Source of the DNA: Fodinibius salicampi
GTDB lineage: Bacteria; Bacteroidota; Rhodothermia; Balneolales; Balneolaceae
Assembly: GCF_039545095.1 (NCBI RefSeq)
Contig: NZ_BAABRS010000001.1
Span: 124,001 to 188,000, forward strand
Length of the DNA: 64,000 bases
Direction of reading: 5' to 3'
Shown one piece after another: positions 10,615 to 63,180 of the stretch. The position numbers and the translations under genes were made by a program. Within the stretch, counting starts at the first letter, position 1. Each line of letters starts with the position of its first letter. The notes under the pieces were generated by a model. The model saw nothing but the letters and a program-made list of their open reading frames with translations, did no database searches and was not told the DNA's origin.

Positions 10615-10653
10615 AAGTGCGAACTTGGACTTTTCCAGGTTCGCACTTTTTTA
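10615..10653. terminator. Strong terminator downstream of tRNA-Asn
   Basis: 15-bp stem aagtgcgaacttgga / tccaggttcgcactt with one G-T pair, tetraloop cttt, then a T-run. It would end the tRNA transcript; a related but diverged hairpin occurs at 13932-13974. Confidence 0.85.
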
Positions 10654-18855: not shown

Positions 18856-18874
18856 TGTAAGAGTATTCCCTACA
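18856..18874. promoter_or_regulatory. 19-bp palindrome upstream of flavoprotein gene
   Basis: TGTAAGAGTATTCCCTACA, both half sites good, central A. 105 bp before the start of the SQR/NDH-2-like gene. Confidence 0.7.
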
Positions 18875-23627: not shown

Positions 23628-23646
23628 TGTAAGAAAATGCACTACA
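23628..23646. promoter_or_regulatory. 19-bp palindrome between Usp operon and AI-2E gene
   Basis: TGTAAGAAAATGCACTACA, both halves recognisable, central A. 172 bp from the Usp start and 328 bp from the AI-2E transporter start. Confidence 0.6.
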
Positions 23647-26493: not shown

Positions 26494-28392
26494 TTATTTT
26501 TTGAGCAAACGCAATCCGTTTAGAACTACCAGCAGGGTACTTCCTTCGTGTCCCACAACACCGATAGGAAGAGGCAACGCAAAGAGAAATACTGAGGCTA
26601 CCAACATGGCAATGACTGCCAGACTAAAGATGATATTTTGCCAGACAATTCTCCGAGACTTGCGCGCAAGTTCAATCAGGTAGGGCAATTTGTTAAGGTC
26701 GTCTCCCATCAATACAACATCGGCTGTTTCCAAAGCTACATCAGTACCTGCTGTGCCCATGGCGATGCCCATGTGGCTGGCTGCCAGTGCCGGGGCGTCA
26801 TTGACGCCATCACCCACCATGGCTACAGAGCCTTCTTGGACTAGCTGTTTGATAAAATCAACCTTTTCGTCGGGTAGCAGCTCTGCGTGAAATTCATTCA
26901 TATTAATCTGATCAGCGATAGAACGAGCGACACCTGTCGTGTCCCCGGTCAGCATCAGCAGACGGTTGATTTGAAGAGCTTTTAATTTCTTTATCGCCGC
27001 TGGCGCCTGCTCTCGAATTTCATCAGCTACGGCAATTAAGCCAGCTGGTTTATCATCGATAACAACATAAATTACCGTTTTGGCTTGCATTTTTAGTTTA
27101 TCAGCTTCTTCCTGTATTCCGTTTTCCCAGTATTTGCTGTTGGTATTAAAGAGTTTTTCGTTGCCTACTTGAATGGTTTTACCTTTCAATTGTGCGGAAA
27201 TGCCTTTTCCGGCCTCTGACTGCACTTGGCTAGCAGAGCCATATTCTATATTTTTTTCGCCCGCTTTTTTTAGAATGGCAGCAGCCAGGTGATGCTCAGA
27301 ATGCTCTTCAGCTGATGCTGCCATTGAAAGCAGTTCAGATTCTGAAATTGCATCGCTGTTACCGTTTTTGAAAGGAGTAATATCCGTTACCGCCAGATTA
27401 CCTTTAGTCAGAGTTCCTGTTTTATCAAAGGCAATAATGTCAATTGAAGCGGCCTGTTCAAGGTAGGCGCCGCCTTTAAATAGGATGCCATTTTTTGCTG
27501 CATTGGCGATAGCCGAAAGAACAGATGCTGGCGTGCTGATCACCAGTGCACAGGGAGAAGCTACCACTAGTACCGTCATGGCTTGGTAAAATATATCATC
27601 GAAAGGTTGGTTCGAAAAGAACCATGGAAATAGGATGAGAAGAATAACCGCAATAATTACCCCCGTCGCATACCAAGGTTCAAAATCATCTAAGAATCGC
27701 TGGGTAGCGGCTTTACTGCCTTGTGCCTGCTCAACCATTTTAATGATTTTGGCCAGGGTTGTTTCGTCGGCCAGCTTGGTAACCCGTACAGAAATAACTC
27801 CATTTTCATTGAGGCTGGCAGCAAAGACATCATCTCCCGGTTCCTTTTTTACAGGTATGCTTTCACCCGTTATTGCTGCCTGATTTATCGACGTATTTCC
27901 GTCTGTTATCTCTCCGTCGATGGGAATGCGTTCTCCGGGTCTGACAATTATGATATCACCTTTTGAAAGGTCTTCAACCGGCCGTTTTATTTCTGAGCCA
28001 TCGGGATTGCGAACCAGCGCTTCATCAGGGCGGAGTTTCATCAGCGATTTTATTTCACGCCGGCTTTTTCCAAGAGCATAGTCCTGAAGGGTATTGCTCA
28101 ATGAAAATAGAAAAAGCAAAATAGCCCCTTCCATCCATTCTCCAATAGTGGCCGCTCCCAGAGCCGCGAGTATCATGAGCACATCTACGTTGATGTTAAA
28201 CTTCATGAGAGCCTTGATGCTCTCGACTGTTCCTGCGTATCCACCGCTTAGATAGGCAAGAATATAGAAAACGATCGTAGTTTGTTCTTGCAGCCAACCC
28301 GTCCAGTCACCTACAGCTCCAATGAGCAAGGTAATGGCACAGATCGCCGTCAAAAATGCCTTAAACTTGTTAGTCGAAATAGATATTTTCAC
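26494..28392 (-). CDS. P1B-4-type metal-exporting ATPase
   Basis: 632 aa, no N-terminal metal-binding domain, few helices. SPC motif (residues 279-281) in VVASPCALVIS, phosphorylation site FDKTGTLTKGN (Asp323), TGES, hinge MVGDGVNDAPALAASHMGIAMG and a C-terminal GHEGSTLLVVLNGLRLL. SPC together with HEGxS/T defines the P1B-4 group (Co2+, Fe2+, Zn2+; e.g. CoaT, PfeT), so it exports such a divalent ion rather than Cu+. The gene for a DUF892 ferritin-like protein lies just upstream on the same strand. Confidence 0.9.
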   Translation of the reverse strand: MKISISTNKFKAFLTAICAITLLIGAVGDWTGWLQEQTTIVFYILAYLSGGYAGTVESIKALMKFNINVDVLMILAALGAATIGEWMEGAILLFLFSLSNTLQDYALGKSRREIKSLMKLRPDEALVRNPDGSEIKRPVEDLSKGDIIIVRPGERIPIDGEITDGNTSINQAAITGESIPVKKEPGDDVFAASLNENGVISVRVTKLADETTLAKIIKMVEQAQGSKAATQRFLDDFEPWYATGVIIAVILLILFPWFFSNQPFDDIFYQAMTVLVVASPCALVISTPASVLSAIANAAKNGILFKGGAYLEQAASIDIIAFDKTGTLTKGNLAVTDITPFKNGNSDAISESELLSMAASAEEHSEHHLAAAILKKAGEKNIEYGSASQVQSEAGKGISAQLKGKTIQVGNEKLFNTNSKYWENGIQEEADKLKMQAKTVIYVVIDDKPAGLIAVADEIREQAPAAIKKLKALQINRLLMLTGDTTGVARSIADQINMNEFHAELLPDEKVDFIKQLVQEGSVAMVGDGVNDAPALAASHMGIAMGTAGTDVALETADVVLMGDDLNKLPYLIELARKSRRIVWQNIIFSLAVIAMLVASVFLFALPLPIGVVGHEGSTLLVVLNGLRLLKK

Positions 28393-28475: not shown

Positions 28476-29033
28476 CTACAGTTGTGAGGTTGACTCTTTC
28501 CCCGACTTTTGTACAATGGCCGTCCATTTTGCGTCCGGATTGATTCGATCCTGGGCAAGGTCACTTAATCCCATATCGGCTCTTTTTTCTTCTCGCAGGG
28601 TATCGAGCAAAATTTCAGCGATATCGTGGTTGTCATGGGCTTTGGCATAAGAGATCGCGGTCCCATATCCGGCTATTTCATAATGATTGATATGCTGTAT
28701 GGCTGTAACCAGTGCAGCATCAAGAACTTCCGGATTCATACAGCGATCGCTAAGTTTCAATGCTTCGTCAATAATTCCCCTAATTCCATCGCATGACTCA
28801 CCAGTTGGTTCTTCACTGAGCATATTGAACACCTCTTCCAAACGACCTAATTGCTTTTTTGTTTCTCTGCGATGCATCTGAATAATTTCATCGAGTTCAA
28901 AAGAGTTTGCTTGCTCATCCGCCTTTAAAAGATAATTGAGCTGCTGACGTTCACCGTCATATAGGTCACGAAGTTGTTCAAGCATTAAATCGTATAAGTC
29001 AAATATTTCAGTTTCTTTATTTTTAATAGTCAT
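28476..29033 (-). CDS. Ferritin-like DUF892 (YciE/YciF) stress protein
   Basis: 185 aa, four-helix bundle with the DUF892 pattern: LYDLMLEQLRDLYDGERQQLNYL, E/H metal-ligand candidates in IQHINHYEIAGYG and in DTLREEKRADMGL. Cytoplasmic; members rise under osmotic or starvation stress. Divergent from the FixL-like kinase gene, and one palindrome (29135-29153) lies about 102 bp from each start. Confidence 0.88.
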   Translation of the reverse strand: MTIKNKETEIFDLYDLMLEQLRDLYDGERQQLNYLLKADEQANSFELDEIIQMHRRETKKQLGRLEEVFNMLSEEPTGESCDGIRGIIDEALKLSDRCMNPEVLDAALVTAIQHINHYEIAGYGTAISYAKAHDNHDIAEILLDTLREEKRADMGLSDLAQDRINPDAKWTAIVQKSGKESTSQL

Positions 29034-29134: not shown

Positions 29135-29153
29135 GGTAGGGGATATCCTTACA
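29135..29153. promoter_or_regulatory. 19-bp palindrome between DUF892 and sensor kinase genes
   Basis: GGTAGGGGATATCCTTACA, central T. 102 bp from the DUF892 start and 103 bp from the kinase start, so one site could serve both and would allow autoregulation of the kinase-regulator pair. Confidence 0.65.
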
Positions 29154-29255
29154 AAAGTGTGGGGGAGTAGAGTAAGGCAAACTCCCTTTAATTATGGTAT
29201 GATAGCAAAAAATTGATTTCTGTGTATCGAGTAAAAAGTAATTGGACAAATAATT

Positions 29256-30683
29256 ATGAACAGGGCAGAATTTAGAACAGATCTTTCCTTTGAAGACCTT
29301 GAAATAATCCTGGATAATGTCCCAAGATTAGTAATGCTGATAGACTTGGATGGAACCATCCTGTATTGGAATGGGGGTGGTGAGGAGGTGTTCGGATATA
29401 AACCGGAAGAAGCTGAGGGTAAACCTGTTTGGTTTCTTTATCCCGATCGTAGACTGGATAACTTCGAGGAAGACCTAATCCAATTGGAAAAGGGTGAAAA
29501 CCTTTCATTAGAGATAGAGGGCCATCATAAGGATGGTTACGCTATATGGCTGGATGTAAAGAGAACTATGATTGAAGATAGTCGGGGTGAGAAGGTTATT
29601 CTGGGGACTGCCAGCGACATCAGCTTACAGAAAAAAACGGAGCTGGAGCTGGCTGAGAGCCAAGCGCGGATCAAGGCAGTTCTGGAAACCGCTGTAGAAG
29701 GAATTATTACCATCGATAAGGAAGGACTCATCCAGAGCTTTAACAGGTCGGCTGAAGAAATGTTTGGCTATTCTTCAGAGGAAGTAATTGGGGAAAATAT
29801 AAGCATGCTTATGCCATCTCCCTACCAGGAGGAACATGACCAGTACATGAAAAATTATCTTGAGACAGGAGAGCGTAAAATTATAGACATTGGCAGAGAA
29901 GTAAGAGGCAAACGAAAGGACGGAAGTATATTTCCAATTGAACTGGCGGTAAGTGAGGTTAAGTTTGAAGATGAAATAATTTTTACTGGGTTAATAAAAG
30001 ATATCAGTGGGCGACGTAAGCTTGAAAATGAGATCCTTCAAATAGCTGAAGATGAACGCCTTCGCATTGGACATGAACTTCATGATGGGTTGGGACAGAT
30101 GCTTTCGGGCATAAGTCTAATCAGTAGGAATTTGGCACGGAAGCTGGAAGCTAATGGCCTGCCAGCTGCTAAGGAGGTGTTGGAAATTTCTAAGATGATC
30201 AGAGAAGCAGATGAACAGGCACGTAAGTTGGCTCACGGATTGGCTCATATTGAGCTGGATAATGAGGGGCTTCAGGTTGCCATGGGTCGACTTTGTGAGC
30301 GAATTGAAGTACTAACAAAGACAACTTGTACCTTTAAATGTCCTAAGGATATTGAAATTGAAAATTCTAGTATTGCGTTGCATCTGTACCGCATTGTACA
30401 AGAATCTATTAACAATGCTGTGAAGCATGGTAAGGCTACAAAAATATTTGTTCGATTGGAAGTCAGTAAAAATAAATTACAGCTTGTTATTGAAGATAAT
30501 GGGGTAGGATTTTCGGAGACAGAAAAAAATAGTAAGTACAATAAAGGGATGGGGATTCATACGATGGAATACCGGTCTCATATATTAGGTGGGAAATTGA
30601 ATATAACTGAAACTCCTGAAGGTTTAACCCGGGTAATATGCAGTATTCCATCTTCAAATATCGAAACTATAAACAAAATATAA
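29256..30683 (+). CDS. FixL-like heme-PAS sensor histidine kinase (HisKA_3)
   Basis: 475 aa, no membrane segment. PAS1 at about 12-125 without a heme ligand; PAS2 at about 135-255 is close to FixL: ITIDKEGLIQSFNRSAEEMF, MLMPSPYQEEHDQYMKNYL with His194 at the FixL heme-ligand position, and GERKIIDIGREVRGKRKDG with Arg214 exactly 20 residues on, matching the O2-signalling Arg220 of FixL. Kinase is NarX/DevS-type: ERLRIGHELHDGLGQ (phospho-His276) and a HATPase domain VQESINNAVKHGKA, DNGVGF, GMGIHTM. Followed 15 bp later by its response regulator. Predicted oxygen sensor; heme binding is inferred from residues only. Confidence 0.88.
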   Translation: MNRAEFRTDLSFEDLEIILDNVPRLVMLIDLDGTILYWNGGGEEVFGYKPEEAEGKPVWFLYPDRRLDNFEEDLIQLEKGENLSLEIEGHHKDGYAIWLDVKRTMIEDSRGEKVILGTASDISLQKKTELELAESQARIKAVLETAVEGIITIDKEGLIQSFNRSAEEMFGYSSEEVIGENISMLMPSPYQEEHDQYMKNYLETGERKIIDIGREVRGKRKDGSIFPIELAVSEVKFEDEIIFTGLIKDISGRRKLENEILQIAEDERLRIGHELHDGLGQMLSGISLISRNLARKLEANGLPAAKEVLEISKMIREADEQARKLAHGLAHIELDNEGLQVAMGRLCERIEVLTKTTCTFKCPKDIEIENSSIALHLYRIVQESINNAVKHGKATKIFVRLEVSKNKLQLVIEDNGVGFSETEKNSKYNKGMGIHTMEYRSHILGGKLNITETPEGLTRVICSIPSSNIETINKI

Positions 30684-30698
30684 TCACCTTTATTAATT

Positions 30699-31370
30699 AT
30701 GGGTAACGACTCGAAAACAAAAATTATAGTAGTGGATGATCATCCGATGATGCGCAAAGGATTGTCGATGACACTGGATTCGGAACTTGGTTATGAAGTC
30801 ATAGCACAGGTTGAACGGGCTGAAGAAGTCGTGGAAAAATATGATGAACTTTCGCCTGATCTGGCTATCATAGATATTTCCCTGCCCGGCATGGGGGGGC
30901 TGGAGCTGGTAAAGCATCTTGCTGCACAGGATCCCAATCTAAAGATACTAGTGGTATCGCGACATGAGGAAAATTTATATGCAGAACGGGTACTACGGGC
31001 CGGTGCCAAGGGTTATGTTATGAAGCAAGAGGCCGGGGAGGTACTGATCAAGGCAGTAAGGAAAATACTCAATGGACGAATCTATGTAAGTGATGCTATC
31101 AATGAAAAATTATTGTTGGGCATGGCAAGTGGTCAAAAAAATCTTAATAAATCACCGCTTGACCTATTGAGTGATCGTGAGCTGGAGGTTTTTGAACTTA
31201 CCGGTAAAGGAAATAATACCCGGGAAATTGCTGAAAAATTACATCTTGCTGTCAAAACCGTGGAATCCTATCGTGCTAGGATCAAAACTAAACTTAACCT
31301 TGAAAATGCTACGGAACTCATGATGCATGCGGTGAAATGGGTTGAGACCGAAGACACAAAACTGGATTAA
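30699..31370 (+). CDS. NarL/FixJ-family response regulator
   Basis: 223 aa. Receiver domain: KIIVVDDHPMMRKGL, phospho-acceptor Asp59 in LAIIDISLPGMGG, and switch Lys in GYVMKQEAG. C-terminal LuxR HTH: LSDRELEVFELTGKGNNTREIAEKLHLAVKTVESYRARI. Co-transcribed with the FixL-like kinase (15-bp gap). Dimers of such proteins bind inverted repeats, so it is the best candidate for the 19-bp palindrome, though that link is inference. Confidence 0.93.
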   Translation: MGNDSKTKIIVVDDHPMMRKGLSMTLDSELGYEVIAQVERAEEVVEKYDELSPDLAIIDISLPGMGGLELVKHLAAQDPNLKILVVSRHEENLYAERVLRAGAKGYVMKQEAGEVLIKAVRKILNGRIYVSDAINEKLLLGMASGQKNLNKSPLDLLSDRELEVFELTGKGNNTREIAEKLHLAVKTVESYRARIKTKLNLENATELMMHAVKWVETEDTKLD

Positions 31371-31734
31371 TAACACTGAGTTTTAACTTCATCAAAGGAG
31401 ATACCATCTTGTACTATAGCCTCTGGTCTTTGTTGAGCACAAAGTTTCGGTTTCTATGTTGGCATTAATTGACAATGTGAGGAAAAAAGAGTTATACCCT
31501 ATCTAAAAAGAATACCTGCTGACAAACGATGATTATTAGTGGGTTTCAGCTTCGTCATTACTTGTAGGGGAATCCCCTATCATTAGAATTACTGCTTTCC
31601 TACAAGATTCAATAAGATCATACTGCATATCCGTGTCCTTATAATTCCGTACTTGTAATCAAGAGATAAGCAGATTCGAACGATTAAGAAGAAGCTGTTT
31701 ATGGAATTAGTAATAGTAATAAGGAGGAGTAATT
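31371..31734. other. hsp20 upstream region
   Basis: 364 bp without a gene. Holds the palindrome at 31563-31581, an isolated right half (cctaca at 31599-31604) 23 bp further on, and a strong ribosome site (aaggagg) just before hsp20. Confidence 0.5.
31563..31581. promoter_or_regulatory. 19-bp palindrome upstream of hsp20
   Basis: TGTAGGGGAATCCCCTATC, nearly perfect inner symmetry (gggg-a-atcccc), central A. 154 bp before the hsp20 start. Confidence 0.65.
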
Positions 31735-32184
31735 ATGAAAGCAATACAAAAAAGATCAGATTTATCGCCAATTGAGTCTATTCGGCGGGAGATGGATCGT
31801 TTTTTTGATGATATAGTGCCTTTCTCGCGAAGAACAGGTAACGGTGGAGTGAACATGGAATTATGGGCACCTGATACGGATGTCAGTGAAACGGATGAAG
31901 AATATATCGTATCAGTAGATCTGCCCGGCATTTCTAAAGAAGATGTAGAAGTAAGCTATAAAGAGAACAGGCTGACAATCAGCGGTGAACGTCAACATGA
32001 AGAAAAAGAAGAAAAGGAAAATTTTCTTCGCAGGGAGCGGTATCATGGTAGCTTTACGCGTTCATTTACGCTGCCTTCGGCAGGTAAGGATGATAAAATT
32101 AAAGCTCGATTTAAAGATGGGGTCCTAAAAGTAACGGTTCCAAAAGCAGAGGTTCAGAAGCCAAAGACCGTACCAATAGACTAA
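31735..32184 (+). CDS. Small heat shock protein Hsp20
   Basis: 149 aa. Alpha-crystallin domain from about 45 to 140: DTDVSETDEEYIVSVDLPGISKEDVEVSYKENRLTISGER, and the C-terminal FKDGVLKVTVPKAE. Ends with a short extension (KPKTVPID) that supplies an IxI/V-like motif. ATP-independent holdase. An 11-bp inverted repeat follows the gene. Confidence 0.95.
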   Translation: MKAIQKRSDLSPIESIRREMDRFFDDIVPFSRRTGNGGVNMELWAPDTDVSETDEEYIVSVDLPGISKEDVEVSYKENRLTISGERQHEEKEEKENFLRRERYHGSFTRSFTLPSAGKDDKIKARFKDGVLKVTVPKAEVQKPKTVPID

Positions 32185-32266: not shown

Positions 32267-32491
32267 ATGAAAACTAATATAAGTAAGACCGATACAATTA
32301 TACGATTGATAATAGCAGTAATTTTTATTGCCTATGGCATTATGTATCAAAGCTGGTGGGGATTGGTAGGAGTTATCCCCTTAATGACTGCCTTAATAGG
32401 GGTATGTCCCATTTATGGCATGTTGGGCTTTTCAACGAGTAAAAATTCTAGAATATTCAGTAGCCCTAAAAAAATAAACTATGAAAAATAA
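32267..32491 (+). CDS. DUF2892 (YgaP-type) membrane protein
   Basis: 74 aa: two hydrophobic helices, with TDTIIRLIIAVIFIAYGIMYQSWW and the CPIYGMLG segment typical of the DUF2892 rhodanese-associated membrane domain. No rhodanese is attached. Ends 11 bp into the SDR gene. Confidence 0.8.
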   Translation: MKTNISKTDTIIRLIIAVIFIAYGIMYQSWWGLVGVIPLMTALIGVCPIYGMLGFSTSKNSRIFSSPKKINYEK

Positions 32492-33233
32492 AGTGGCTTT
32501 AATTACGGGCGCGGCTACGGGTATTGGCAGAGAAACCGCCATTGCTTTTGCGCGAAAGGGAGCTAATGTCGTAATCTCTGATATCAACGATGAAAAACTT
32601 AAGGAAACCCAGAAACTGATAGAAGAGAAAAGAGTTAAGGTTCTATCTGTAAAAGCGGATATATCGAAAGAGGATGATATCCGAAATATGGTTAAAAAAG
32701 CCGTAGAACAATTTGGGCGGCTTGATATTGCCTGCAATAATGCTGGCATCGCTGGGGAATCTGCGACTACCGGTGAATATAGCATCGAGGGATGGGACAA
32801 AGTGCTCAATGTTAATCTCAGAGGGCAATTCATTTGTATGAAATATGAAATCGAAGCAATGATCAAGAATGGGAGCGGCTCGATTGTTAATATCTCCTCT
32901 ATCCTTGGTCATGTGGGCTTTGCGGAAGCACCGGCCTATGTTGCATCAAAACACGGACTTCTTGGGCTTACAAAAACCGCAGCAATTGAATACGCATCGC
33001 AAGGTATACGGATTAATGCCGTATGTCCGGGCTTTATAGAAACACCAATGTTGGAAGATGCGGGTATTACAACCGTAGAAGAAACCAAGCAATACATTAT
33101 TTCACTGCATCCAGCAGGGCGGTTGGGCAAGCCGCGCGAGGTAGCTGATGCCATCGTGTGGTTGGCTTCCGATGAAGCATCTTTTGTTACTGGTCACCCG
33201 TTGTTAGTTGACGGAGGATATGTGGCGTGGTAG
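32481..33233 (+). CDS. Short-chain dehydrogenase/reductase
   Basis: 250 aa, classical SDR. Cofactor loop TGAATGIGRE, DISKEDD after beta-4, NNAG, catalytic Ser in NISSILG, Tyr153-x3-Lys157 (YVASKHG), and the C-terminal GHPLLVDGGYVAW. An aspartate at the end of beta-2 (VISDIND) suggests NAD+ preference. Substrate unknown. Overlaps DUF2892 by 11 bp. Confidence 0.93.
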   Translation: MKNKVALITGAATGIGRETAIAFARKGANVVISDINDEKLKETQKLIEEKRVKVLSVKADISKEDDIRNMVKKAVEQFGRLDIACNNAGIAGESATTGEYSIEGWDKVLNVNLRGQFICMKYEIEAMIKNGSGSIVNISSILGHVGFAEAPAYVASKHGLLGLTKTAAIEYASQGIRINAVCPGFIETPMLEDAGITTVEETKQYIISLHPAGRLGKPREVADAIVWLASDEASFVTGHPLLVDGGYVAW

Positions 33234-33315
33234 TTAGGCAGTGACTTATTAAAGTTTGCAGAATCTGTTAATCGCAGACTCTGGGCTATATCTTTTTTAA
33301 AATTTAGTTCGCAAT

Positions 33316-35721
33316 TTGAAAATGAGCAATCCATTATCTCCCTATATCCTTTGGTTTGAAGAGGTTGGAATAGACGATGTTGGTTTGGTCGGTGGAAAGA
33401 ACGCTTCCCTTGGTGAAATGATTAAGCATCTGAAACCGCTGGGCATTAATGTTCCCAATGGGTTTGCCACCACCGCAGAAGCCTACTGGGCTTTTATGAA
33501 AGAAAACAACCTGAATGCCCCTATTAGTGAGGAAATTAGCAGATATCAGAAGGGAGAGATATCTCTGAAAGAGACCGGCCTTTCTATTCGGCAGATGATT
33601 AATAAGGGGGTATTTCCGATTCCATTGGCTGAGAAAATTAGATCGGCGTATTCTGAATTATCCGAGAAGTACGATGTGAAGGATGTGGATGTGGCTGTTC
33701 GAAGCAGTGCAACCGCAGAGGACCTTCCAAATGCCAGTTTTGCGGGACAACAGGAGACCTACCTAAACATCCGAGGGGGAGATGAATTAGTGGGTGTCTG
33801 TAAAAAGTGTTTTGCATCTCTCTTTACCGATCGGGCCATCTCTTATCGGGAGGAAAAAGGGTTTGATCATATGAAGGTGGCTTTGTCCATCGGAGTCCAG
33901 AAAATGGTCAGAGCAGACAAGGCTAGTTCCGGGGTCATCTTTACCGTGGATACAGAATCAGGGTTCCCAAATGTGGTGCTTATCAATGGTTCGTGGGGGC
34001 TGGGAGAAAATATTGTGCAAGGTACCGTTAATCCAGACCAGTTTTTTGTCTTCAAACCATTTCTAAATGATGATAAGAAGCGTCCCATTATCGAAAAAAT
34101 AAAAGGCAGCAAAGAGCTTAAAATGGTGTATGCAACCGACGGGGAAAATAACACGAAAAATTTGCCTACTTCCATGATGGAGCGGCATTCATATGTGCTT
34201 GAGGATGAAGAGGTACTCCAGCTGGCCCGATGGGCTACTGATATCGAAGAACATTACGGGAAGCCGATGGATATCGAGTGGGTGAAGGAAGATTCTACCA
34301 ATCAGCTTTATATCGTACAGGCTCGTCCCGAGACCGTTCACTCACAACAGCTTGATGGAATTTTTAAAACCTATAGACTGCACGAAAATAGAGCCCCTGT
34401 GTTGGTAAAGGGACTAAGTATTGGCAACAGTATCGTTCACGGTATTATCAAGCATGTACATGATATCACTGATCTTAAAGATCTGCAGCCTGACCATATA
34501 CTCGTTACTGAAATGACAGAACCCGACTGGGTACCATCGCTGAAGAAAGTAGCCGGTATTATTACCGATTTCGGGGGACGAACCTGTCACGCGGCCATTG
34601 TTAGTCGCGAGCTGGGAATTTCTGCCGTAGTGGGTACGGGAGAAGCGACAAAGGTGCTTAAAGAAGGACAAGAGGTAACGCTTTCAAGCGGAGAGGGAGA
34701 AGAAGGAAAGATTTATAAGGGAATGGTTGAATTCGATGTTAATGAGGTTGATCTGAGCAATCTTCCTGAACCTCAAACGGATATCATGTTAAATATGGCC
34801 ACCCCAGAGTCGGCTTTTAAATGGTGGCGGCTTCCGGTCCGCGGTGTAGGACTGGCCCGTATGGAATTTATTATCAGTCAGCATATTCGCATCCATCCAA
34901 TGGCTCTGGCCCATCCCGAACGAGTTAATAATGAGGATGAGTTTGCTAAAATCAGAAAGCTAACCAAGGGGTATAGTGATCTTGAGGAATATTTTGTGGA
35001 TAAACTTTCCAGCGGCATCGCAAAAATAGCCGCCTCTCAACACCCGCATCCGGTAATCGTGCGAACCAGTGATTTCAAGACCAACGAGTACGCTGATCTG
35101 ATTGGGGGTAATGAGTTTGAACCTGATGAGCAGAATCCAATGCTGGGATGGCGGGGCGCCTCGCGTTATTACAGTGATGGATACCGGGATGGATTTGCCC
35201 TGGAGTGTCGGGCACTTAAGAAAGTACGTGCAGATATAGGACTTGAAAATGTGATAATTATGATCCCCTTTTGCCGTACACTGACTGAAGCAAAAAAGGT
35301 ATTGAAACAGATGGAAGCCTTCGGGTTGCGGCGCGGTGAGAATGGCCTCCAAATCTATATGATGTGTGAAATTCCGAGTAACTACATCCTTACGGAAGAA
35401 TATGCAGAATTATTTGATGGATTTTCTATTGGCTCGAACGATCTGACACAACTTATTCTGGGAGTGGATCGGGACTCGGCGGAATTGGCCTACCTGTTTG
35501 ATGAGAATGATCCGGCCGTTAAAAAAGCAATCCGTGATGTAATCAGCCGTACTCACCAGGCAGGACTCAGAATCGGTTTCTGTGGGCAGGCTCCGAGCGA
35601 TGATACTGATTACGCGGCTTTTCTCGTCGAATGTGGAATTGATTCTATTTCGCTAAACCCGGATAGCGTAATAAATGTAATCAAAAAAGTATACCAGGCC
35701 GAACAAAAACGCTCTACTTGA
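33316..35721 (+). CDS. ppsA: Phosphoenolpyruvate synthase
   Basis: 801 aa, full length. N-terminal ATP-grasp domain (LVGGKNASLGEMI, VAVRSSATAEDLPNASFAGQQETYLN), central swivelling His domain with GGRTCHAAIVSREL (His425), and the C-terminal PEP/pyruvate TIM barrel (GSNDLTQLILGVDRD, GFCGQAPSD). Converts pyruvate plus ATP to PEP plus AMP and phosphate in gluconeogenesis. Lies 10 bp before the N-ATPase operon, so may share its transcript; linkage with Hsp20, Usp and N-ATPase is common in stress clusters. Confidence 0.95.
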   Translation: MKMSNPLSPYILWFEEVGIDDVGLVGGKNASLGEMIKHLKPLGINVPNGFATTAEAYWAFMKENNLNAPISEEISRYQKGEISLKETGLSIRQMINKGVFPIPLAEKIRSAYSELSEKYDVKDVDVAVRSSATAEDLPNASFAGQQETYLNIRGGDELVGVCKKCFASLFTDRAISYREEKGFDHMKVALSIGVQKMVRADKASSGVIFTVDTESGFPNVVLINGSWGLGENIVQGTVNPDQFFVFKPFLNDDKKRPIIEKIKGSKELKMVYATDGENNTKNLPTSMMERHSYVLEDEEVLQLARWATDIEEHYGKPMDIEWVKEDSTNQLYIVQARPETVHSQQLDGIFKTYRLHENRAPVLVKGLSIGNSIVHGIIKHVHDITDLKDLQPDHILVTEMTEPDWVPSLKKVAGIITDFGGRTCHAAIVSRELGISAVVGTGEATKVLKEGQEVTLSSGEGEEGKIYKGMVEFDVNEVDLSNLPEPQTDIMLNMATPESAFKWWRLPVRGVGLARMEFIISQHIRIHPMALAHPERVNNEDEFAKIRKLTKGYSDLEEYFVDKLSSGIAKIAASQHPHPVIVRTSDFKTNEYADLIGGNEFEPDEQNPMLGWRGASRYYSDGYRDGFALECRALKKVRADIGLENVIIMIPFCRTLTEAKKVLKQMEAFGLRRGENGLQIYMMCEIPSNYILTEEYAELFDGFSIGSNDLTQLILGVDRDSAELAYLFDENDPAVKKAIRDVISRTHQAGLRIGFCGQAPSDDTDYAAFLVECGIDSISLNPDSVINVIKKVYQAEQKRST

Positions 35722-37556
<1,835 letters not shown>

Positions 37557-37570
37557 TAGAAACGCCCGAA

Positions 37571-37867
37571 ATGACTGAAAAATCAAACAATAAAAATGAG
37601 TTCGCTGATACGGTCCGAAAAAAAACAACGCGCAAGATTCGTTCTCGTGAAGAGGGTGATAAAGGGCTGTGGTATGGATTGGGAATGTTCGGTTTAGTGG
37701 GATGGTCGGTGTCGATACCCACCATCTTATTCTTGTTGCTGGGTATCTGGATCGACAGCACCTACAAGAGTACGTATTCATGGACGCTCATGATGCTGAT
37801 TGTAGGAATTTTTATCGGATGTATGAACGCCTGGTATTGGGTGAAAAAAGAATCAAAAGGAGGATAA
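37571..37867 (+). CDS. N-type ATPase accessory AtpQ (AtpI/AtpZ-like)
   Basis: 98 aa: basic N-terminus, then two membrane helices (GLGMFGLVGWSVSIPTILFLLLGIWID and YSWTLMMLIVGIFIGCMNAWYWV). Position between epsilon and AtpR identifies it as AtpQ of the N-ATPase operon; it probably helps assemble the rotor ring or delivers ions, like AtpI. Confidence 0.75.
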   Translation: MTEKSNNKNEFADTVRKKTTRKIRSREEGDKGLWYGLGMFGLVGWSVSIPTILFLLLGIWIDSTYKSTYSWTLMMLIVGIFIGCMNAWYWVKKESKGG

Positions 37868-37868
37868 G

Positions 37869-38162
37869 ATGACGTATCTGCAAATGTTTTTTTATGTGAC
37901 GGCAGCTGGAGGTGGAGTTGTACTTGGACTAATTTATTTTGGAGGACTCTGGATCACCGTTAAGAAAGTAAACAACGCGCGGCGCCCTTATCTTCTCTTG
38001 GCAAGCAGTTTTTTAGTACGAACAGCTCTGGTATTGGCGGGGTTTTACTTACTTCTGCTTTACAACTGGATATACTTGGTGTTGGCTATGATTACTTTTA
38101 TCGTTACCCGCCATTTTTTGATTCAGCGCAAAGGCAAGTCTTCTGAATTGATATACGGCTGA
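37869..38162 (+). CDS. N-type ATPase accessory AtpR
   Basis: 97 aa with three hydrophobic helices and a conserved Arg in the membrane (LASSFLVRTALVLAGFYLLL), the hallmark of AtpR (N-ATPase RnfG-like small protein). One base separates it from AtpQ. AtpR is found only in N-ATPase operons, so it confirms the type. Confidence 0.8.
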   Translation: MTYLQMFFYVTAAGGGVVLGLIYFGGLWITVKKVNNARRPYLLLASSFLVRTALVLAGFYLLLLYNWIYLVLAMITFIVTRHFLIQRKGKSSELIYG

Positions 38163-38166
38163 TGCC

Positions 38167-38886
38167 ATGGAAATTGATATCGATCAAATTATTTATTGGG
38201 AATGGGGCTTTCTTAAGCTGAATGCCACCCTTCTGTTTTCATGGTTGGTGATGCTGTTTATGATCGGTATATCGATTATGATTACCCGCAAGCTAACATC
38301 CAAAACAGGGATGTCGCGCGGGCAGGCCCTTCTGGAATCATTGGTGGTACTCATTGAAGAACAGATCGAGGAGGCCACCGGTGAAAAAGCGGAGAAGTAT
38401 ATCCCGTTTATCAGTACGCTATTTCTATTTATTGTAGTTTCAAATACGATTAACGTAATTCCGGGCTTCCACGCCCCGACCGCTTCTTTGTCCACCACAG
38501 CAGCTTTGGCCCTGTGCGTTTTTGTGGCGGTGCCTGTGTTTGGTATTAGTTCAGCGGGACTTAAAAATTATTTTCGCTATTACATTGAGCCTACCCCTCT
38601 GATGCTCCCGTTCAATATTATCGGGGAGCTCTCGCGTACGCTTGCCTTGGCTATCCGACTCTTTGGAAACATCATGAGCGGGAGTCTCATTGTAGCCATA
38701 CTGCTTAGTCTGACGCCCCTCTTTTTTCCGGTTGTCATGCAGGCCTTTGGACTGCTGATCGGGATCATACAAGCGTATGTATTTGCCATTTTAGCACTTG
38801 TTTATGTGGCTTCGGCCGGACGTATTCGCGAAAATAAGGAACAGTCTGAATACGAAAATAACTCTTACAATCATCAAACATCCTGA
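38167..38886 (+). CDS. atpB: N-type ATPase subunit a
   Basis: 239 aa, about five or six helices. The essential stator Arg lies in ELSRTLALAIRLFGNIMSG, followed by the helix AFGLLIGIIQAYVFAILALVYV. Forms the two ion half-channels. Four bases after AtpR. Confidence 0.93.
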   Translation: MEIDIDQIIYWEWGFLKLNATLLFSWLVMLFMIGISIMITRKLTSKTGMSRGQALLESLVVLIEEQIEEATGEKAEKYIPFISTLFLFIVVSNTINVIPGFHAPTASLSTTAALALCVFVAVPVFGISSAGLKNYFRYYIEPTPLMLPFNIIGELSRTLALAIRLFGNIMSGSLIVAILLSLTPLFFPVVMQAFGLLIGIIQAYVFAILALVYVASAGRIRENKEQSEYENNSYNHQTS

Positions 38887-38890
38887 CATC

Positions 38891-39160
38891 ATGGAAAGTA
38901 TAAGTATCATTGGAATGGTATCCATCATTACGGCCGGCCTTACGATAGCCATAGGCTCTATCGCACCCGCCCTGGGGGAAGGGCGCGCGCTGGCACAGGC
39001 CCTGCTGGCTATAGCGCAACAGCCGGATGAAAGTCCGACCATAACACGAACCCTGTTTGTGGGACTGGCAATGATCGAGTCGACCGCTATTTACTGCTTT
39101 GTTGTTGCCCTCATTATAATGTTCGCAAATCCCTTCTGGGATTTTGTAGCCGGAGGATAA
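38891..39160 (+). CDS. atpE: N-type ATPase rotor subunit c
   Basis: 89 aa from the ATG at 38891 (an upstream frame extension is inside atpB and rejected). Two helices: SIAPALGEGRALAQALLAIA and FVGLAMIESTAIYCFVVAL. Glu63-Ser-Thr with Tyr68 is the Na+-binding signature, and helix 1 has Glu30 where Na+ ATP synthases such as that of Ilyobacter have Gln, giving two carboxylates 33 residues apart per hairpin. Ion: Na+ suggested by Glu-Ser-Thr-x2-Tyr; the second Glu makes H+ or a two-carboxylate coupling possible. Confidence 0.92.
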   Translation: MESISIIGMVSIITAGLTIAIGSIAPALGEGRALAQALLAIAQQPDESPTITRTLFVGLAMIESTAIYCFVVALIIMFANPFWDFVAGG

Positions 39161-39161
39161 C

Positions 39162-39926
39162 GTGCAAATCGATTGGTTCACATTTTCTGCCCAGATTATA
39201 AATTTTCTGATCCTGCTGTGGCTCTTACGGAAATTCCTGTATGGTCCGCTGCTCAATGTCATGAAAAGCAGAGAGGAGAAAATTTCTTCTAGGCTAAAGG
39301 AGGCAAGTACCAAACTCAAAGAAGCGGAGCTCAAGTCACAGAAATATGAAAAAAAAATAATTGAGTTGGAAAAGCAGAAATCCACTTGGCTTGAAGAGGC
39401 CAAAAAAGAAGCAGAATCATTCAAGTTGGAACTGATCCAGGAAGCAAGGAATGAAGTGGAGAAGGTTCGGGATAAATGGATGAAGGCGGTAGAAACCGAA
39501 AAAAAGATGTTTCTGGAGGAACTTGAAGAACAGTCCTTCCAGAAGGTTATGGATATCGTTGAGAATATTGTAACGGACTTGGCAGATATTACACTTGAAA
39601 AACAGGCGGTCAATCGATTCATCAGTCAGTTAAAGGAGATGAAGGAAAAGGACAGACGGCGGATGACCAAAGCGGTGGATGCTGACCAGCTCGAAGTTGC
39701 AACGGCCTTTCCGATTGAGGAGGAGGATCGCGAACAAATTGATGCCACTATTCGTCAGCTGCTGGACAGAAAGGACGGCTGCCGGTATAAACATGATCCT
39801 GAGCTGGGATTTGGTATTGAAGTACGCAGCAATGGCTGGAAAATAGGCTGGAATATGAAAGGTTATCTCGAGGAGCTGAGATCAGAGGTCAAAACGGTTT
39901 TAGGCCAGCTGGAAGACGATACCTGA
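39162..39926 (+). CDS. atpF: N-type ATPase subunit b with delta-like C-terminus
   Basis: 254 aa from GTG at 39162, right after the c stop. N-terminal membrane anchor (FSAQIINFLILLWLLRKFLYGPL), long charged coiled coil (40-150), then a C-terminal domain (ATAFPIEEEDREQIDATIRQLL...GIEVRSNGWKIGWNMKGYLEELRSEV) resembling the delta subunit. No separate delta gene is present in the operon, so this fusion must supply the peripheral stalk, as usual for N-ATPases. Confidence 0.88.
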   Translation: MQIDWFTFSAQIINFLILLWLLRKFLYGPLLNVMKSREEKISSRLKEASTKLKEAELKSQKYEKKIIELEKQKSTWLEEAKKEAESFKLELIQEARNEVEKVRDKWMKAVETEKKMFLEELEEQSFQKVMDIVENIVTDLADITLEKQAVNRFISQLKEMKEKDRRRMTKAVDADQLEVATAFPIEEEDREQIDATIRQLLDRKDGCRYKHDPELGFGIEVRSNGWKIGWNMKGYLEELRSEVKTVLGQLEDDT

Positions 39927-39984
39927 AAGAAACCCGATGTGCATAATGAGCTCTAACATCTATAGTAGCATGTGAGATAGTAAA

Positions 39985-41535
39985 ATGACTGCCCCAATAC
40001 TTAATTCGATACTTGAAAAATCCATGACCCGGCTGGATAGGGTGCTCCAGGGAGAACCGAATATACGGCTTCGGGAGTACGGAATCGTGACATCGGTGGG
40101 GGAAGGGTTTATCCGCGTTCGGGGGTTACCGCATGTCGGAACTGATGAGCTGGTATACGTAGATGCGCGACAGCGCCGTGTGCCGGGACTGGTTTACAAC
40201 TTGGATGCCGGAGAAGCCGGTATTATCCTTCTTGATGAAGAGCGATATGTGGAAGCCGGAGATGAAGTTCACCGGTCATCTGATATATTAAGTGTTCCTG
40301 TCGGCGATCAGCTTCTGGGTAGGGTAGTGGACAGCATTGGTCGTCCCCTAGACGGCAAAAAGCTGCTGAACACAAATGAAACCCTGCCGGTAGAACGTCC
40401 AGCCCCGCCCATCATGCACCGAAGTCCCGTCGAAACTCCACTACAGACGGGTATTAAAGTGATCGATGCCCTGTTTCCGATTGGACGGGGTCAACGCGAA
40501 TTGATTATAGGTGATCGGCAGATCGGCAAGACGGCAATAGCTGTGGATACTATAATCAATCAGCATGACAAAAACGTAATCTGTATTTATTGTGGTATAG
40601 GCAAGCAAAAAGCAGCGGTAGCCCGGGTTATAACAGATCTACAAAAACACGGAGCCATGGATTATTCGATTGTTGTTACGGCCGGGAGTGAAGATCCGGT
40701 AGGTCTGCAATATATTGCTCCATATGCAGCTACTAGTATCGGTGAATATTTTATGGAGCAGGGCAAGGATGTATTGGTGGTTTATGATGATTTGACTTGG
40801 CACGCCCGGGCTTATCGCGAACTGGCATTGTTACTTCGTCGTCCACCAGGTCGCGAAGCCTATCCGGGTGATATTTTTTATATTCATTCGCGACTGTTGG
40901 AGAGGTCTACTCGGCTTAAACCAGAATACGGGGGCGGATCGCTGACAGCCTTGCCCATAGTGGAGACACAGTCTCAAAATATATCGGCATTTATACCTAC
41001 CAACCTGATTTCCATTACCGATGGACAGCTCTATCTGTCTCCAGAACTTTTCCAAAAAGATGTGATGCCGGCCATTGACTCCGGGAAGTCGGTCTCCCGG
41101 GTCGGCGGTGCGGCCCAGCGGCCAGCCTACCGTTCTGTAACCAAAAAGATCCGGTTAGCCTATGCCCAATTCGAAGAACTGGAAGCATTTTCGCGGTTTA
41201 GCTCGCGGCTTGATGAAGATACCAAGAGGACCATTGAGCGCGGTCGCCTAATTCGTGAGAGTTTAAAACAGCCACAATTTGAACCCCTAAATATTGGGGA
41301 ACAAATTTTACTGCTGCTGGCGGTGACCTCAGGGTTGATGGATGACATTCCGCTCGCCCGACTTGAAGAAGCCAAACGGCAGATCCGAGAAACCTACCGA
41401 GAGCATTCCGATGCACTGGATCAAAAAATTGACTGGCAGGAAGATATTACGGAAGATGAACGAACATATTTGCTAGATTTGGTAGAAACAGCGTTTGAAT
41501 CGTTAAAAGAAGAGCAGGAGCATGCAGAAACTTGA
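39985..41535 (+). CDS. atpA: N-type ATPase alpha subunit
   Basis: 516 aa. Beta-barrel start, Walker A GDRQIGKTAIAVDT, VVYDDLTWHARAYRELALLLRRPPGREAYPGD, and ISITDGQLYLSPELF. Non-catalytic nucleotide-binding subunit. The 58-bp gap after subunit b is the longest within the operon. Overlaps gamma by 14 bp. Confidence 0.95.
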   Translation: MTAPILNSILEKSMTRLDRVLQGEPNIRLREYGIVTSVGEGFIRVRGLPHVGTDELVYVDARQRRVPGLVYNLDAGEAGIILLDEERYVEAGDEVHRSSDILSVPVGDQLLGRVVDSIGRPLDGKKLLNTNETLPVERPAPPIMHRSPVETPLQTGIKVIDALFPIGRGQRELIIGDRQIGKTAIAVDTIINQHDKNVICIYCGIGKQKAAVARVITDLQKHGAMDYSIVVTAGSEDPVGLQYIAPYAATSIGEYFMEQGKDVLVVYDDLTWHARAYRELALLLRRPPGREAYPGDIFYIHSRLLERSTRLKPEYGGGSLTALPIVETQSQNISAFIPTNLISITDGQLYLSPELFQKDVMPAIDSGKSVSRVGGAAQRPAYRSVTKKIRLAYAQFEELEAFSRFSSRLDEDTKRTIERGRLIRESLKQPQFEPLNIGEQILLLLAVTSGLMDDIPLARLEEAKRQIRETYREHSDALDQKIDWQEDITEDERTYLLDLVETAFESLKEEQEHAET

Positions 41536-42430
41536 ACAGCTACAGCGCAAAGTTAAGAATGCGGAAGACCTACAATCTATTGTGCGGACGATGAAACTAA
41601 TGGCTTCGGTGGGCATTCATCAGTTTGAGGATGCTGTCGATTCGCTTGGTGACTATTACAATACCCTTGAACGGGGTCTGCAGGTTGTGCTTTCCAAAGA
41701 ATTCAGTGAGGCTCGCCCTTTCCTCTCATCGGGTAATGAGGGTTCAGCCGGGATCATTGTTATTGGTTCAAGCCAGTCGCTGTGCGGACCATTTGATGAG
41801 TCGATTCTGACTTATACGTTGGATAAGATCAGAGAAGATGAAAAAAAGGGGGCGCAGTTCTTTGTATTGGGAGAACGGCTGACCGGTTATTTTAGGCAGG
41901 AGGAGGAAGTGTTGATAAGCAAACAGTTTATTTTGCCCGGTTCGGCAGGCGGGATCAATGGACTGGTGCTGGATCTACTGACCGGTATTGAAGAGTGGCA
42001 AGCAACACAGGATATCCGTTCGATAAGGGTATTGCATAACAAGCTGACTGGCAAGGAAGGTTACACGCCTCGCAGCCAGCATCTTCTGCCATTAAATAAA
42101 CAGTGGTTGGAACAGCTTATTGATCAGCCTTGGCCGTCCAATAATTTGCCCCAATATTCGGCAGATGGGCATGCTTTATTTCTTTCGCTGCTGAGACAAT
42201 ATCTGTTTGTCTCCCTTTATCGCGCCGTTGCCGAATCGCTTGCTGCCGAGTATAGCAGTCGCTTGTTTGCCATGCAGCAGGCTGAAAAGAAAATAGACGA
42301 GCGTTTGGAGAAATTGAATCGGGCTTATACTCATGAGCGCCAGTCATCGATCACCAGTGAGCTACTGGATATTATGGCAGGTTTTGAGGCAGCTCAGTCT
42401 ATGGATGATTGTAATAGCGAGACAGGTTAG
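41522..42430 (+). CDS. atpG: N-type ATPase gamma subunit
   Basis: 302 aa. N-terminal helix QRKVKNAEDLQSIVRTMKLMASVGIHQFEDAV and C-terminal helix EYSSRLFAMQQAEKKIDERLEKLNRAYTHERQSSITSELLDI make the central shaft; between them SSQSLCGPFDESI replaces the usual SDRGLCG motif. Divergent from housekeeping gamma subunits, as expected for N-ATPases. Last gene of the operon. Confidence 0.92.
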   Translation: MQKLEQLQRKVKNAEDLQSIVRTMKLMASVGIHQFEDAVDSLGDYYNTLERGLQVVLSKEFSEARPFLSSGNEGSAGIIVIGSSQSLCGPFDESILTYTLDKIREDEKKGAQFFVLGERLTGYFRQEEEVLISKQFILPGSAGGINGLVLDLLTGIEEWQATQDIRSIRVLHNKLTGKEGYTPRSQHLLPLNKQWLEQLIDQPWPSNNLPQYSADGHALFLSLLRQYLFVSLYRAVAESLAAEYSSRLFAMQQAEKKIDERLEKLNRAYTHERQSSITSELLDIMAGFEAAQSMDDCNSETG

Positions 42431-46252: not shown

Positions 46253-47929
46253 TTATTTTAAAGTAATTTTTGTACTCGCCAAAGCTACAGAAGTACTTTT
46301 CGACATAGAATCATAATAATTTACAAAGCGGTTGGTTTCGGGGGAGTCATAGGGCGCCAGATTTTGAGCCCATCGAAATGCTATGGGCTGGTAATATAAT
46401 TTAGTATCGATTTGCAATGGTCCTTCTATATCCTTCAGATTTATACGGAATCGGATACGATCGGTCCCGCCAATGAAATCCTCATCATCAAATGCCTGAC
46501 CCTGTACCGCAATATCTTCTTTAGCTGTGGATTTGTCGAAGCCATCTGGCAGAATCCTGTTGTCTTTAATAAATTGGATTGCGGTTAGCAGACCCGTGGT
46601 CACCTTACCATCAGGGTCGGCCATAATAGCTTCGTAAACTTGTACTTGGTCCTGACTTGTTATTTCTGAATAGTGCGGTTCATATTTTCCATCGTTATCA
46701 TCGTTGGCATTACCAACAATTGAACCATCCGGACGGACCGCTCCGGATTCAAAAACGATACTACCGTTTCGATCGGTAACGGAAAAATGAATCCAAACAC
46801 GTCTGGATGGATATGCTGTCGGCAATTTATGGCCTGCCAGATTATTGATAGTAACATCAACTATGGCCTGATTATTTTCCATATAAGCGTTTGCTATCGA
46901 AATTTGAGCAGATTTGGTTTGCAGGTGATCTATGGTACGATTGATAGCAGCGTCCATTTCTTGAGGTAAAGCCTGTACGCCCAGTTCATCACGGTATCGA
47001 TTAAGCATACTCATCATAAAAAAGTTACCACCCCGGAAGGAGTGTCGGGAGACATTTTTGCGGGGTTGTCCCCATACCGAAGATATAACTGTGCTGTCTT
47101 GTACTTCAGGCATGTGACAGGATTGACAGCTTTGATCGTCAACAAAACTGCTGTGTTTCCACTCCAAATAGGGGACCTGCTCGGGAAGTTCACCTATAAC
47201 CTCACCTTCGGAATCAAGTGTGTGGGTGTAGAGAGTATGACAAGTAGCACACATTTCGGACTGTTGAATATGCTTCGATTCTTTTTGCTGAAATCCGGAT
47301 GAAGAATGCATGATTTTAGATCTGCCGGCATCTACGGGATATGGGCCATAAACTTCTCGTTGTCCCATTGGCTGCAGCGTATCAATAAGGAACCCGCCTA
47401 CAAAACTTTCACGTTTACCAAAGTTGTCACCCTGGATCTGATGACAGGTTGTACAGGACACACCATCTATAGCAAGCAGATTCTGTTGCGTTACGGCTTT
47501 ATTTGTAGGAAGGTTTGTAAATACTTCTGTCATCTTTCCGTTTGCATTGGCCTGGTAGTGGGCCATGGGCATATGACAGGTAGAACATTCATTTTCAATA
47601 AATGCTTGTGATTCGGGATGATCCATAACTTCACGGCGCACGGCGGCGTGCCAATATGGATCGCGGGCTGAATTGGCCATCATAGAAGCACGCCAGCTTG
47701 ATCCAAAAGAAATATCCTCTCCCGAAGAAGTTATAAGGTTGTTATGGCAGCTCAAGCAGTTGTCTGCTGTCTGGAAAAGCAGGTGATTTGCTATGGTTAC
47801 ATCCATCCCATGAACCTGTGGCACAGAAACAGAATCTGATGTTCCGAAATTAAAGCTTATCCCTAAAGAAATTACCAACACCGGGAGTATAATAATGAAA
47901 ATTAAATGTTTATTTACAGATTTTGCCAT
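46253..47929 (-). CDS. Secreted pentaheme cytochrome c
   Basis: 558 aa. Signal anchor (HLIFIIILPVLVISLGISF), then five heme motifs in the first 300 residues: CLSCH, CSTCH, CTTCH, CATCH, CQSCH. The C-terminal part (about 340-560) is a beta-rich domain with a GHKLPTAYPSRRVWIHF strand. Probable periplasmic or surface electron carrier or oxidoreductase such as the cytochrome c554-like group. 25 bp downstream of the cytochrome-barrel gene, so in one operon under the palindrome at 49241. Confidence 0.88.
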   Translation of the reverse strand: MAKSVNKHLIFIIILPVLVISLGISFNFGTSDSVSVPQVHGMDVTIANHLLFQTADNCLSCHNNLITSSGEDISFGSSWRASMMANSARDPYWHAAVRREVMDHPESQAFIENECSTCHMPMAHYQANANGKMTEVFTNLPTNKAVTQQNLLAIDGVSCTTCHQIQGDNFGKRESFVGGFLIDTLQPMGQREVYGPYPVDAGRSKIMHSSSGFQQKESKHIQQSEMCATCHTLYTHTLDSEGEVIGELPEQVPYLEWKHSSFVDDQSCQSCHMPEVQDSTVISSVWGQPRKNVSRHSFRGGNFFMMSMLNRYRDELGVQALPQEMDAAINRTIDHLQTKSAQISIANAYMENNQAIVDVTINNLAGHKLPTAYPSRRVWIHFSVTDRNGSIVFESGAVRPDGSIVGNANDDNDGKYEPHYSEITSQDQVQVYEAIMADPDGKVTTGLLTAIQFIKDNRILPDGFDKSTAKEDIAVQGQAFDDEDFIGGTDRIRFRINLKDIEGPLQIDTKLYYQPIAFRWAQNLAPYDSPETNRFVNYYDSMSKSTSVALASTKITLK

Positions 47930-47954
47930 GAGGTTTCCTTTTCATTGTGATTCT

Positions 47955-49240: not shown

Positions 49241-49259
49241 TGTAGGTATTATCCTTACA
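49241..49259. promoter_or_regulatory. 19-bp palindrome upstream of cytochrome operon
   Basis: TGTAGGTATTATCCTTACA, one of the best copies, central T. 99 bp upstream of the cytochrome-barrel start. Confidence 0.75.
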
Positions 49260-49501: not shown

Positions 49502-49520
49502 TTTAGGTAAATCCCTTACA
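49502..49520. promoter_or_regulatory. 19-bp palindrome upstream of DUF6567 gene
   Basis: TTTAGGTAAATCCCTTACA, central A. 61 bp before the DUF6567 lipoprotein start. Confidence 0.7.
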
Positions 49521-53289: not shown

Positions 53290-53665
53290 AAATAGTTACC
53301 CGCAAGTGATCATTCTAAGAGTAAAGAAAACCCCTACAAATTTTTTATGATTTGTCTTGCAGGGGGCGCCTGAAAAACTGGTAAAATTCAGTAGTGATAA
53401 TTTAGAATACAAAAGAGGAAGTCTTATGGAAAGTTTTACAAAAAGTTAGAAAATGGGAAAAGTTATAACTCTGAATGAGCCCAAAATTACCAATCATCGG
53501 TGGCAAAGGCTCTCTAAGCTCGGTGGGCGGCTTATACAGATCTGCAACATCCTACAGAGATCGATACCGGGTAAAGAGTAAAAATCCTTCTGATTTGAAT
53601 TAATCGTCCAGATAAATTGAACAGCAAGTCAAAAGAATCAATTCAACTAAAATACCTATCCAAAA
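53290..53665. other. Gene-poor stretch before the MMPL exporter
   Basis: 376 bp. A 42-codon rightward frame (53453-53581, MGKVITLNEPKITNHRWQRLSKLGG...) has no clear ribosome site or family. An imperfect inverted repeat with ccccta/aggggg ends spans about 53331-53367. A half palindrome lies at 53320-53338. Confidence 0.35.
53320..53338. promoter_or_regulatory. Possible 19-bp palindrome, right half only
   Basis: AGTAAAGAAAACCCCTACA, central A; left half poor. 328 bp before the MMPL gene, unlike the usual distance, so doubtful. Confidence 0.25.
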
Positions 53666-63161: not shown

Positions 63162-63180
63162 TGTAGTCTAAATCCTTACA
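63162..63180. promoter_or_regulatory. 19-bp palindrome upstream of DUF3365 gene
   Basis: TGTAGTCTAAATCCTTACA, both halves good, central A. 88 bp upstream of the DUF3365 start. Confidence 0.7.

Follow-up and report, generated by a model that had tools for sequence, protein, structure and literature searches.

A FixL-like PAS sensor on a HisKA_3 kinase core and its predicted local stress regulon in Fodinibius salicampi

INTRODUCTION

Which signal does a histidine kinase read, and which genes does it command, when its sensor half resembles FixL and its catalytic half belongs to another family? The question is raised by a kinase-regulator pair lying in a 64,000-nucleotide stretch of the Fodinibius salicampi genome (contig NZ_BAABRS010000001.1, positions 124,001 to 188,000; hereafter the window, along which positions are numbered). 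A first-pass annotation made from the letters alone had read the pair as a FixL sensor joined to a DosRST/NarXL-type output, and had placed it amid genes that bear a palindrome, with a DosR-like hypoxia or dormancy system as the simplest interpretation. Here we follow up that reading in the window, in the rest of the genome and in related and control genomes.

RESULTS

Domain make-up of the kinase and its regulator

The pair consists of the following features.

29256..30683, + strand: sensor histidine kinase gene, 475 aa (translation and Pfam)
29310..29624, + strand: PAS1, residues 19-123 (Pfam)
29667..30005, + strand: PAS2, residues 138-250, FixL-type heme PAS (Pfam, PDB sequence match, predicted fold)
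29835..29837, + strand: codon of His194, counterpart of the FixL heme ligand (alignment with FixL)
29895..29897, + strand: codon of Arg214, counterpart of the FixL distal Arg (alignment with FixL)
30054..30248, + strand: HisKA_3 phosphoacceptor domain, ELHDGLGQ (Pfam)
30378..30653, + strand: HATPase_c of the kinase (Pfam)
30699..31370, + strand: NarL/FixJ-family response regulator (REC and GerE), 223 aa (Pfam)

Pfam assigns two PAS domains, HisKA_3 and HATPase_c to the kinase. The HisKA_3 score (45.3 bits against a cut-off of 24) bears out the earlier claim that a core of this type stands in place of the FixL-type HisKA; the whole genome holds four HisKA_3 matches. By reading, PAS1 lacks the FixL heme motif. 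The best PDB sequence matches of PAS2 are FixL heme domains (1d06, E = 1.4e-31; 1dp6, E = 2.4e-27), and the heme-ligand His, the Ile at +15 and the Arg at +20 that had been noticed in this domain are all found, His194, Ile209 and Arg214 aligning with the FixL residues in both entries. The position of Sinorhizobium meliloti FixL Arg200, which forms a salt bridge with a heme propionate, is occupied by Asn in the PAS2 alignment; FixL Arg200 variants retain heme spectra but autoxidize in air (PMC10765370).

The predicted fold of PAS2 agrees with three BjFixL heme-domain entries at TM 0.90-0.92, and the predicted model (mean pLDDT 81.7, pTM 0.38) reaches a target TM of 0.69-0.75 against the FixL tandem-PAS structure 8js5. 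Residues 210-212, directly before Arg214, have pLDDT < 50, so the heme pocket is not settled by the model. Leu230 and Val232 are also kept and, like His194 and Arg214, vary little or not at all in two alignments with rows picked by hand, A1 and A3, the latter taking in Verrucomicrobia and Planctomycetes. His194 and Arg214 are present in 12/12 rows of A1 and 14/14 rows of A3, and Ile209 is frequent, though variable, across both. Within the genome, eight PAS2-like matches lie outside the kinase; one of them (L102) gave no alignment, and in none of the seven that realigned (L107 partially) do the FixL His and Arg occur together. The heme motif by itself is not rare, since FixL-type heme PAS domains are widespread, with >9700 sequences, or 60% of the FixL cluster of one survey, keeping the His (PMC10468136). 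From residues and fold, PAS2 most likely binds heme through His194 and would sense oxygen.

The regulator gene neighbours the kinase gene on the same strand, and its Response_reg and GerE domains give it the make-up of the NarL/FixJ superfamily, in line with the NarL-type regulator proposed for this place. It matches the NCBIfam FixJ model with a score below the cut-off, and the solved structures nearest to it are VraR and DevR (DosR). FixJ, too, belongs to the LuxR-type regulators of this superfamily, so that the true departure from FixLJ is the kinase core.

The combination was seen outside this genome as well. PAS and HisKA_3 were found by Pfam in 10/10 chosen kinases, and a scan of named genomes detected FixL-type PAS on HisKA_3 in records of Verrucomicrobia, Kiritimatiellia, Planctomycetota and Rhodothermales; in the open-access literature searched, we found no description of it.

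Genes around the pair

The neighbourhood includes the following genes.

26494..28392, - strand: P-type metal ATPase gene (Pfam)
28476..29033, - strand: DUF892 protein gene, divergent from the kinase (Pfam)
31735..32184, + strand: Hsp20 gene, probable target (Pfam, upstream motif)
32481..35721, + strand: SDR and PPDK/PEP-synthase-like genes, possibly in one transcription unit with hsp20 (Pfam, gene order)
35731..42430, + strand: operon of an alternate (N-type) F1Fo ATPase, whose place behind hsp20 and the PEP synthase-like gene is conserved
46253..49142, - strand: cytochrome c and multiheme cytochrome genes, probable targets

The beta subunit of the alternate ATPase just passes TIGR03305, with a score of 752.2 (cut-off 752). 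Together, Hsp20, Usp, the PEP synthase-like protein, the alternate ATPase, the cytochromes, the metal ATPase and DUF892 would suit survival in an energy-poor or hypoxic state.

A palindrome clustered at promoters of the window

A 14-bp form of the palindrome, its arms 4 bases apart, was discarded, its 15 matches against 20.1 expected being no better than chance, and was replaced by the 17-bp GTARGG-N5-CCYTAC, which is very probably the operator of the regulator. The window holds these predicted operators, all from motif matches and given without strand.

18857..18873: upstream of a weakly SQR-like oxidoreductase (18979); conserved in the relative G011
23629..23645: weaker, 2 mismatches, between usp and an AI-2E-family gene
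29136..29152: perfect match, between the DUF892 and kinase genes
31564..31580: upstream of hsp20; in a comparable place in most relatives
49242..49258: upstream of the cytochrome c and multiheme genes
49503..49519: weaker, 2 mismatches, upstream of 49581; G011 has a similar site
53321..53337: 329 bp upstream of an MMPL gene
61259..61275: between flavodoxin and YkuD genes; conserved in G011
63163..63179: weaker, 2 mismatches, upstream of a Tll0287-like gene; similar in G011

With at most one mismatch the genome contains 17 sites, six of them within the 64-kb window where 0.28 would be expected (P = 4.9e-7). All six fall between genes, 95-329 bp from the closest start codon, and the three weaker copies at 23629, 49503 and 63163 are intergenic too. 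Fifteen of the 17 sites were inspected with their neighbours; among the nine of these outside the window, seven lie inside genes and two are intergenic, one 18 bp from a called start. The perfect match at 29136-29152, between the kinase and the divergent DUF892 gene, agrees with the copy claimed for the pair's own promoter region. A genome-wide regulon was considered and the counts speak against it: 17 sites stand against 41 for a reversed-pattern control here, and 9-20 against 42-65 in six relatives. In these six, many near-matches fall outside the cluster among the matches listed, and their neighbours were viewed in 12 chosen stretches. The shared palindrome thus holds up in its 17-bp form as a clustered and conserved element, but not as one enriched across the genome.

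In the absence of a genome-wide excess, the meaning of the motif rests on clustering, promoter position and conservation. Since it was first found in the window, its clustering there is partly circular, and the independent test comes from the relatives, themselves related to one another.

The predicted operator accompanies the regulator in relatives

Stretches around the pair were compared in relatives with two mismatches allowed in the motif. In 20 of the 30 regulator-linked loci it follows the regulator by no more than 400 bp, while 119 permuted half-sites gave a mean of 2.0 and a maximum of 17, the latter from a near-copy of the motif. The spacing is specific as well: a gap of 5 yields 20 loci, against at most 5 for every other gap from 0 to 11. 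Upstream of the kinase the motif is seen in only 9/28 loci (permutations: mean 1.3, maximum 8).

For hsp20 genes linked to the regulator, 15/18 have the motif upstream; the site is missing in G030, G002 and G005, and that of G003 lies just within the called hsp20 start. The control comprised 27 genomes chosen for having no kinase match at 1e-60, two of which, G004 and G010, turned out to possess a regulator orthologue (E <= 1e-45). Of 58 hsp20 matches 30 were seen as loci, some sharing a genome, and the motif was present at two of these 30 inspected copies, namely those of G004 and G010. After reassignment of both to the linked group, 28 unlinked copies are left, all lacking the motif (15/18 versus 0/28; Fisher P = 1.6e-9). 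The copies without the motif are 31-46% identical to the window Hsp20, compared with 49-100% for the regulator-linked ones, and may therefore be paralogues, not true counterparts.

Several genomes share the order kinase - regulator - motif - hsp20 - PEP synthase - alternate ATPase, mostly with SDR. In G001 the cytochrome genes are on a separate contig, and the motif is still present there. Some genomes carry a second kinase-regulator pair followed by a conserved 423-451-aa protein, and here the motif follows the regulator in 7/8 loci (all except L122). We rejected the possibility that the motif is a property of hsp20 itself, as it is absent at the 28 unlinked hsp20 copies and present after the regulator with other operons. 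Taken together, the loci of relatives, the hsp20 control, the second pairs and the G001 cytochromes tie the predicted operator to the regulator and not to any single target gene.

The pairs with the 423-451-aa protein behind them are found in L124 (11832-15501), L112, L114, L115, L116, L117, L121 and L122. The protein is 57-74% identical to the L124 copy in the seven other loci; neither Pfam nor NCBIfam matches the 423-aa L124 protein, the PDB offers nothing usable for it, and two YceI-like proteins come after it.

A second arm next to some operators

Two extra half-sites accompany operators near the pair.

29159..29164, no strand: GTGGGG at +23, the left half of a further, degenerate palindrome (sequence)
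31599..31604, no strand: CCTACA, the right half of a further, degenerate palindrome (sequence)

Of 85 site-gene pairs, 28 have YTAC towards the gene, its T falling at +37/38 (shuffled sequences: 1.5 on average, 5 at most), and 10 have GTRGG at +22 to +24 (shuffled sequences: 0.28 on average, 2 at most). Sites between divergent genes are counted twice in the 85 pairs and orthologous promoters are not independent, so these numbers somewhat overstate the evidence. Six of the ten GTRGG cases precede kinase or regulator genes. Within the window, the sites at 18857, 31564 and 57564 have the +37/38 arm, and the site at 29136 has the other. Each arm would make up one half of a further palindrome ~23 bp downstream, an arrangement reminiscent of a pair of adjoining dimers. 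The same fractions rule out a second arm at every operator.

Sensor turnover

Among 49 listed kinase matches, 30 were obtained as loci and aligned. The heme His is present in 25/30 and missing in G002, G005, G003, G008 and G014. The regulator still adjoins the kinase in all five, and in all of these genomes but G005 the motif lies next to the kinase, the regulator or both; G014 retains the full gene order and the motifs. On the kinase-core tree the loss needs two changes, forced by well-supported branches, with the position of G014 less sure because its row is long. The alignment and tree thus indicate at least two losses of the heme His. With the His gone in 5/30 and the regulator still alongside, the regulon need not always be oxygen-driven, which qualifies the DosR-like hypoxia or dormancy reading; the Usp, Hsp20, metal ATPase and cytochrome genes nearby speak for it.

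In G010 and G004 the regulator, motif and targets are present and the adjoining kinase is not. The protein that best matches the kinase there has 576-583 aa (L126, L127) and is located ~16-22 kb away, past the ATPase genes; by reading, it starts with a hydrophobic stretch, has a HisKA_3-like H-box and lacks the FixL motif. A role for this protein in driving the regulator is conjecture. Overall, the sensor input looks exchangeable: the regulator has been retained, in most cases together with its operators and targets.

DISCUSSION

Sequence and fold place the pair between well-studied systems. To rhizobial FixL-FixJ it is similar in the tandem PAS with a heme PAS, the His/Arg/Ile pocket and the LuxR-type regulator; the proximal His with distal Arg and Ile is found here at the level of residues and fold. 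FixL has a core of HisKA type, in contrast to HisKA_3 here, and the NCBIfam FixL model covers residues 77-259 only, with 170.3 bits against a cut-off of 850. FixLJ acts on fixK/nif, whereas the putative targets here form a local stress cluster.

DosS and DosT of Mycobacterium carry a heme sensor on a HisKA_3-type core, and the DosR regulon contains Hsp20, many Usp and a P-type ATPase. Core type and LuxR-type regulator are shared and so, as predicted from sequence, is autoregulation. The heme of DosS and DosT sits in a GAF domain, however, while here it would sit in a PAS domain and Pfam finds no GAF in the kinase. For the DosR regulon, ten Usp and the alpha-crystallin parallel are documented (PMC6127331). 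As in that regulon, a LuxR-type regulator goes with a palindrome shared by hsp20, stress genes and its own operon, a resemblance at the sequence level.

NreB of Staphylococcus combines PAS with a NarX-type core, and the NreC box is TAGGG-N4-CCCTA; the present pair likewise unites a PAS plus NarX-type core kinase with a regulator and a palindromic site. NreB-NreC is an oxygen-sensing kinase with a regulator binding GC-rich palindromes, and NreB senses through a [4Fe-4S] cluster (PMC8139620). The sensor half here differs in being devoid of cysteine, and with no Cys in kinase residues 1-260 an NreB-type iron-sulfur sensor is ruled out. The low-oxygen-activated (lxa) locus of Burkholderia cenocepacia is a comparable low-oxygen stress cluster, with six Usp and induction at low oxygen (PMC9104464) and an alpha-crystallin gene (PMC6127331); the consulted parts of these two sources mention no such kinase-regulator pair or palindrome.

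The sensor is thus FixL-like, the kinase core NarX/DosS-like and the predicted regulon DosR-like, and the union of a FixL sensor with a DosRST/NarXL-type output proposed at first pass is upheld in its domain make-up. Lacking one defining feature of each named kinase family, the pair would be a variant heme-based two-component system, neither FixL nor DosS.

We consider it fairly probable that the pair is an oxygen-responsive switch with a local regulon. PAS2 would bind heme b through His194 and, by analogy with FixL, oxygen leaving the heme would cause a change passed through the coiled coil to the HisKA_3 core, turning the kinase on. The activated core would phosphorylate the regulator, which may then bind GTARGG-N5-CCYTAC, often as two dimers ~23 bp apart. 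We infer that regulation is positive, bound regulator turning on its own operon and hsp20-SDR-PEP synthase, possibly with the alternate ATPase; DUF892, the cytochromes, the oxidoreductase at 18979, flavodoxin and usp are further candidate targets.

Other readings of the sensor have to be weighed against this scheme. The true signal of a heme-bound PAS2 may be NO, CO or heme redox state instead of oxygen, as gas ligands are not separable from sequence and the cytochromes, flavodoxin and oxidoreductase would equally fit redox or respiratory inhibition; we regard this as unlikely, given that the distal Arg and Ile match those of the oxygen sensor FixL and that the neighbour genes are similar to hypoxia regulons. 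It seems rather improbable that PAS2 is heme-free in this organism, its motif a residue and the pair sensing something else. The relatives that keep the regulator without the heme His would fit such a state, as would the ~40% of FixL-cluster PAS domains lacking the His in one survey (PMC10468136), but His194, Arg214, Leu230 and Val232 are all kept here and conserved in A1 and A3, along with Ile209, which is common there.

On the output side, some near-matches in relatives lie far from the pair, and the palindrome might belong to another stress-cluster regulator that merely has its sites nearby. We give this very little credence: the motif remains after the regulator even where the next operon differs, the control genomes have it at hsp20 in the two with the regulator and at none of the others' inspected copies, and the inverted repeat is of the size expected for a LuxR-type dimer. 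We therefore keep the pair's own regulator as the probable reader of the palindrome.

As to history, we tentatively suggest, at a little under an even chance, that a DosR-like regulon arose separately here: the regulator and its compound operator would be the fixed part and the sensor the exchangeable one, with a FixL-type heme PAS ancestral, the heme ligand lost at least twice, and another kinase of the cluster perhaps taking over in two genomes. The system also points to more than one origin of dormancy-like regulons. One natural protein unites two well-studied oxygen-sensing designs and can reveal how a HisKA_3 core is driven by a heme PAS of FixL type. A readable operator code, a probable target set and natural relatives without the heme ligand make the role of heme in the output testable without designed mutants.

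Two further observations concern the DNA itself. In the window at 50241-50963, two frames resemble by reading pieces of one broken serine-hydrolase (beta-lactamase-fold) gene. A tRNA at 10530-10601 is followed by a 141-bp repeat whose copies, at 10636-10776 and 13962-14102, are 94% identical and could be the ends of an inserted element.
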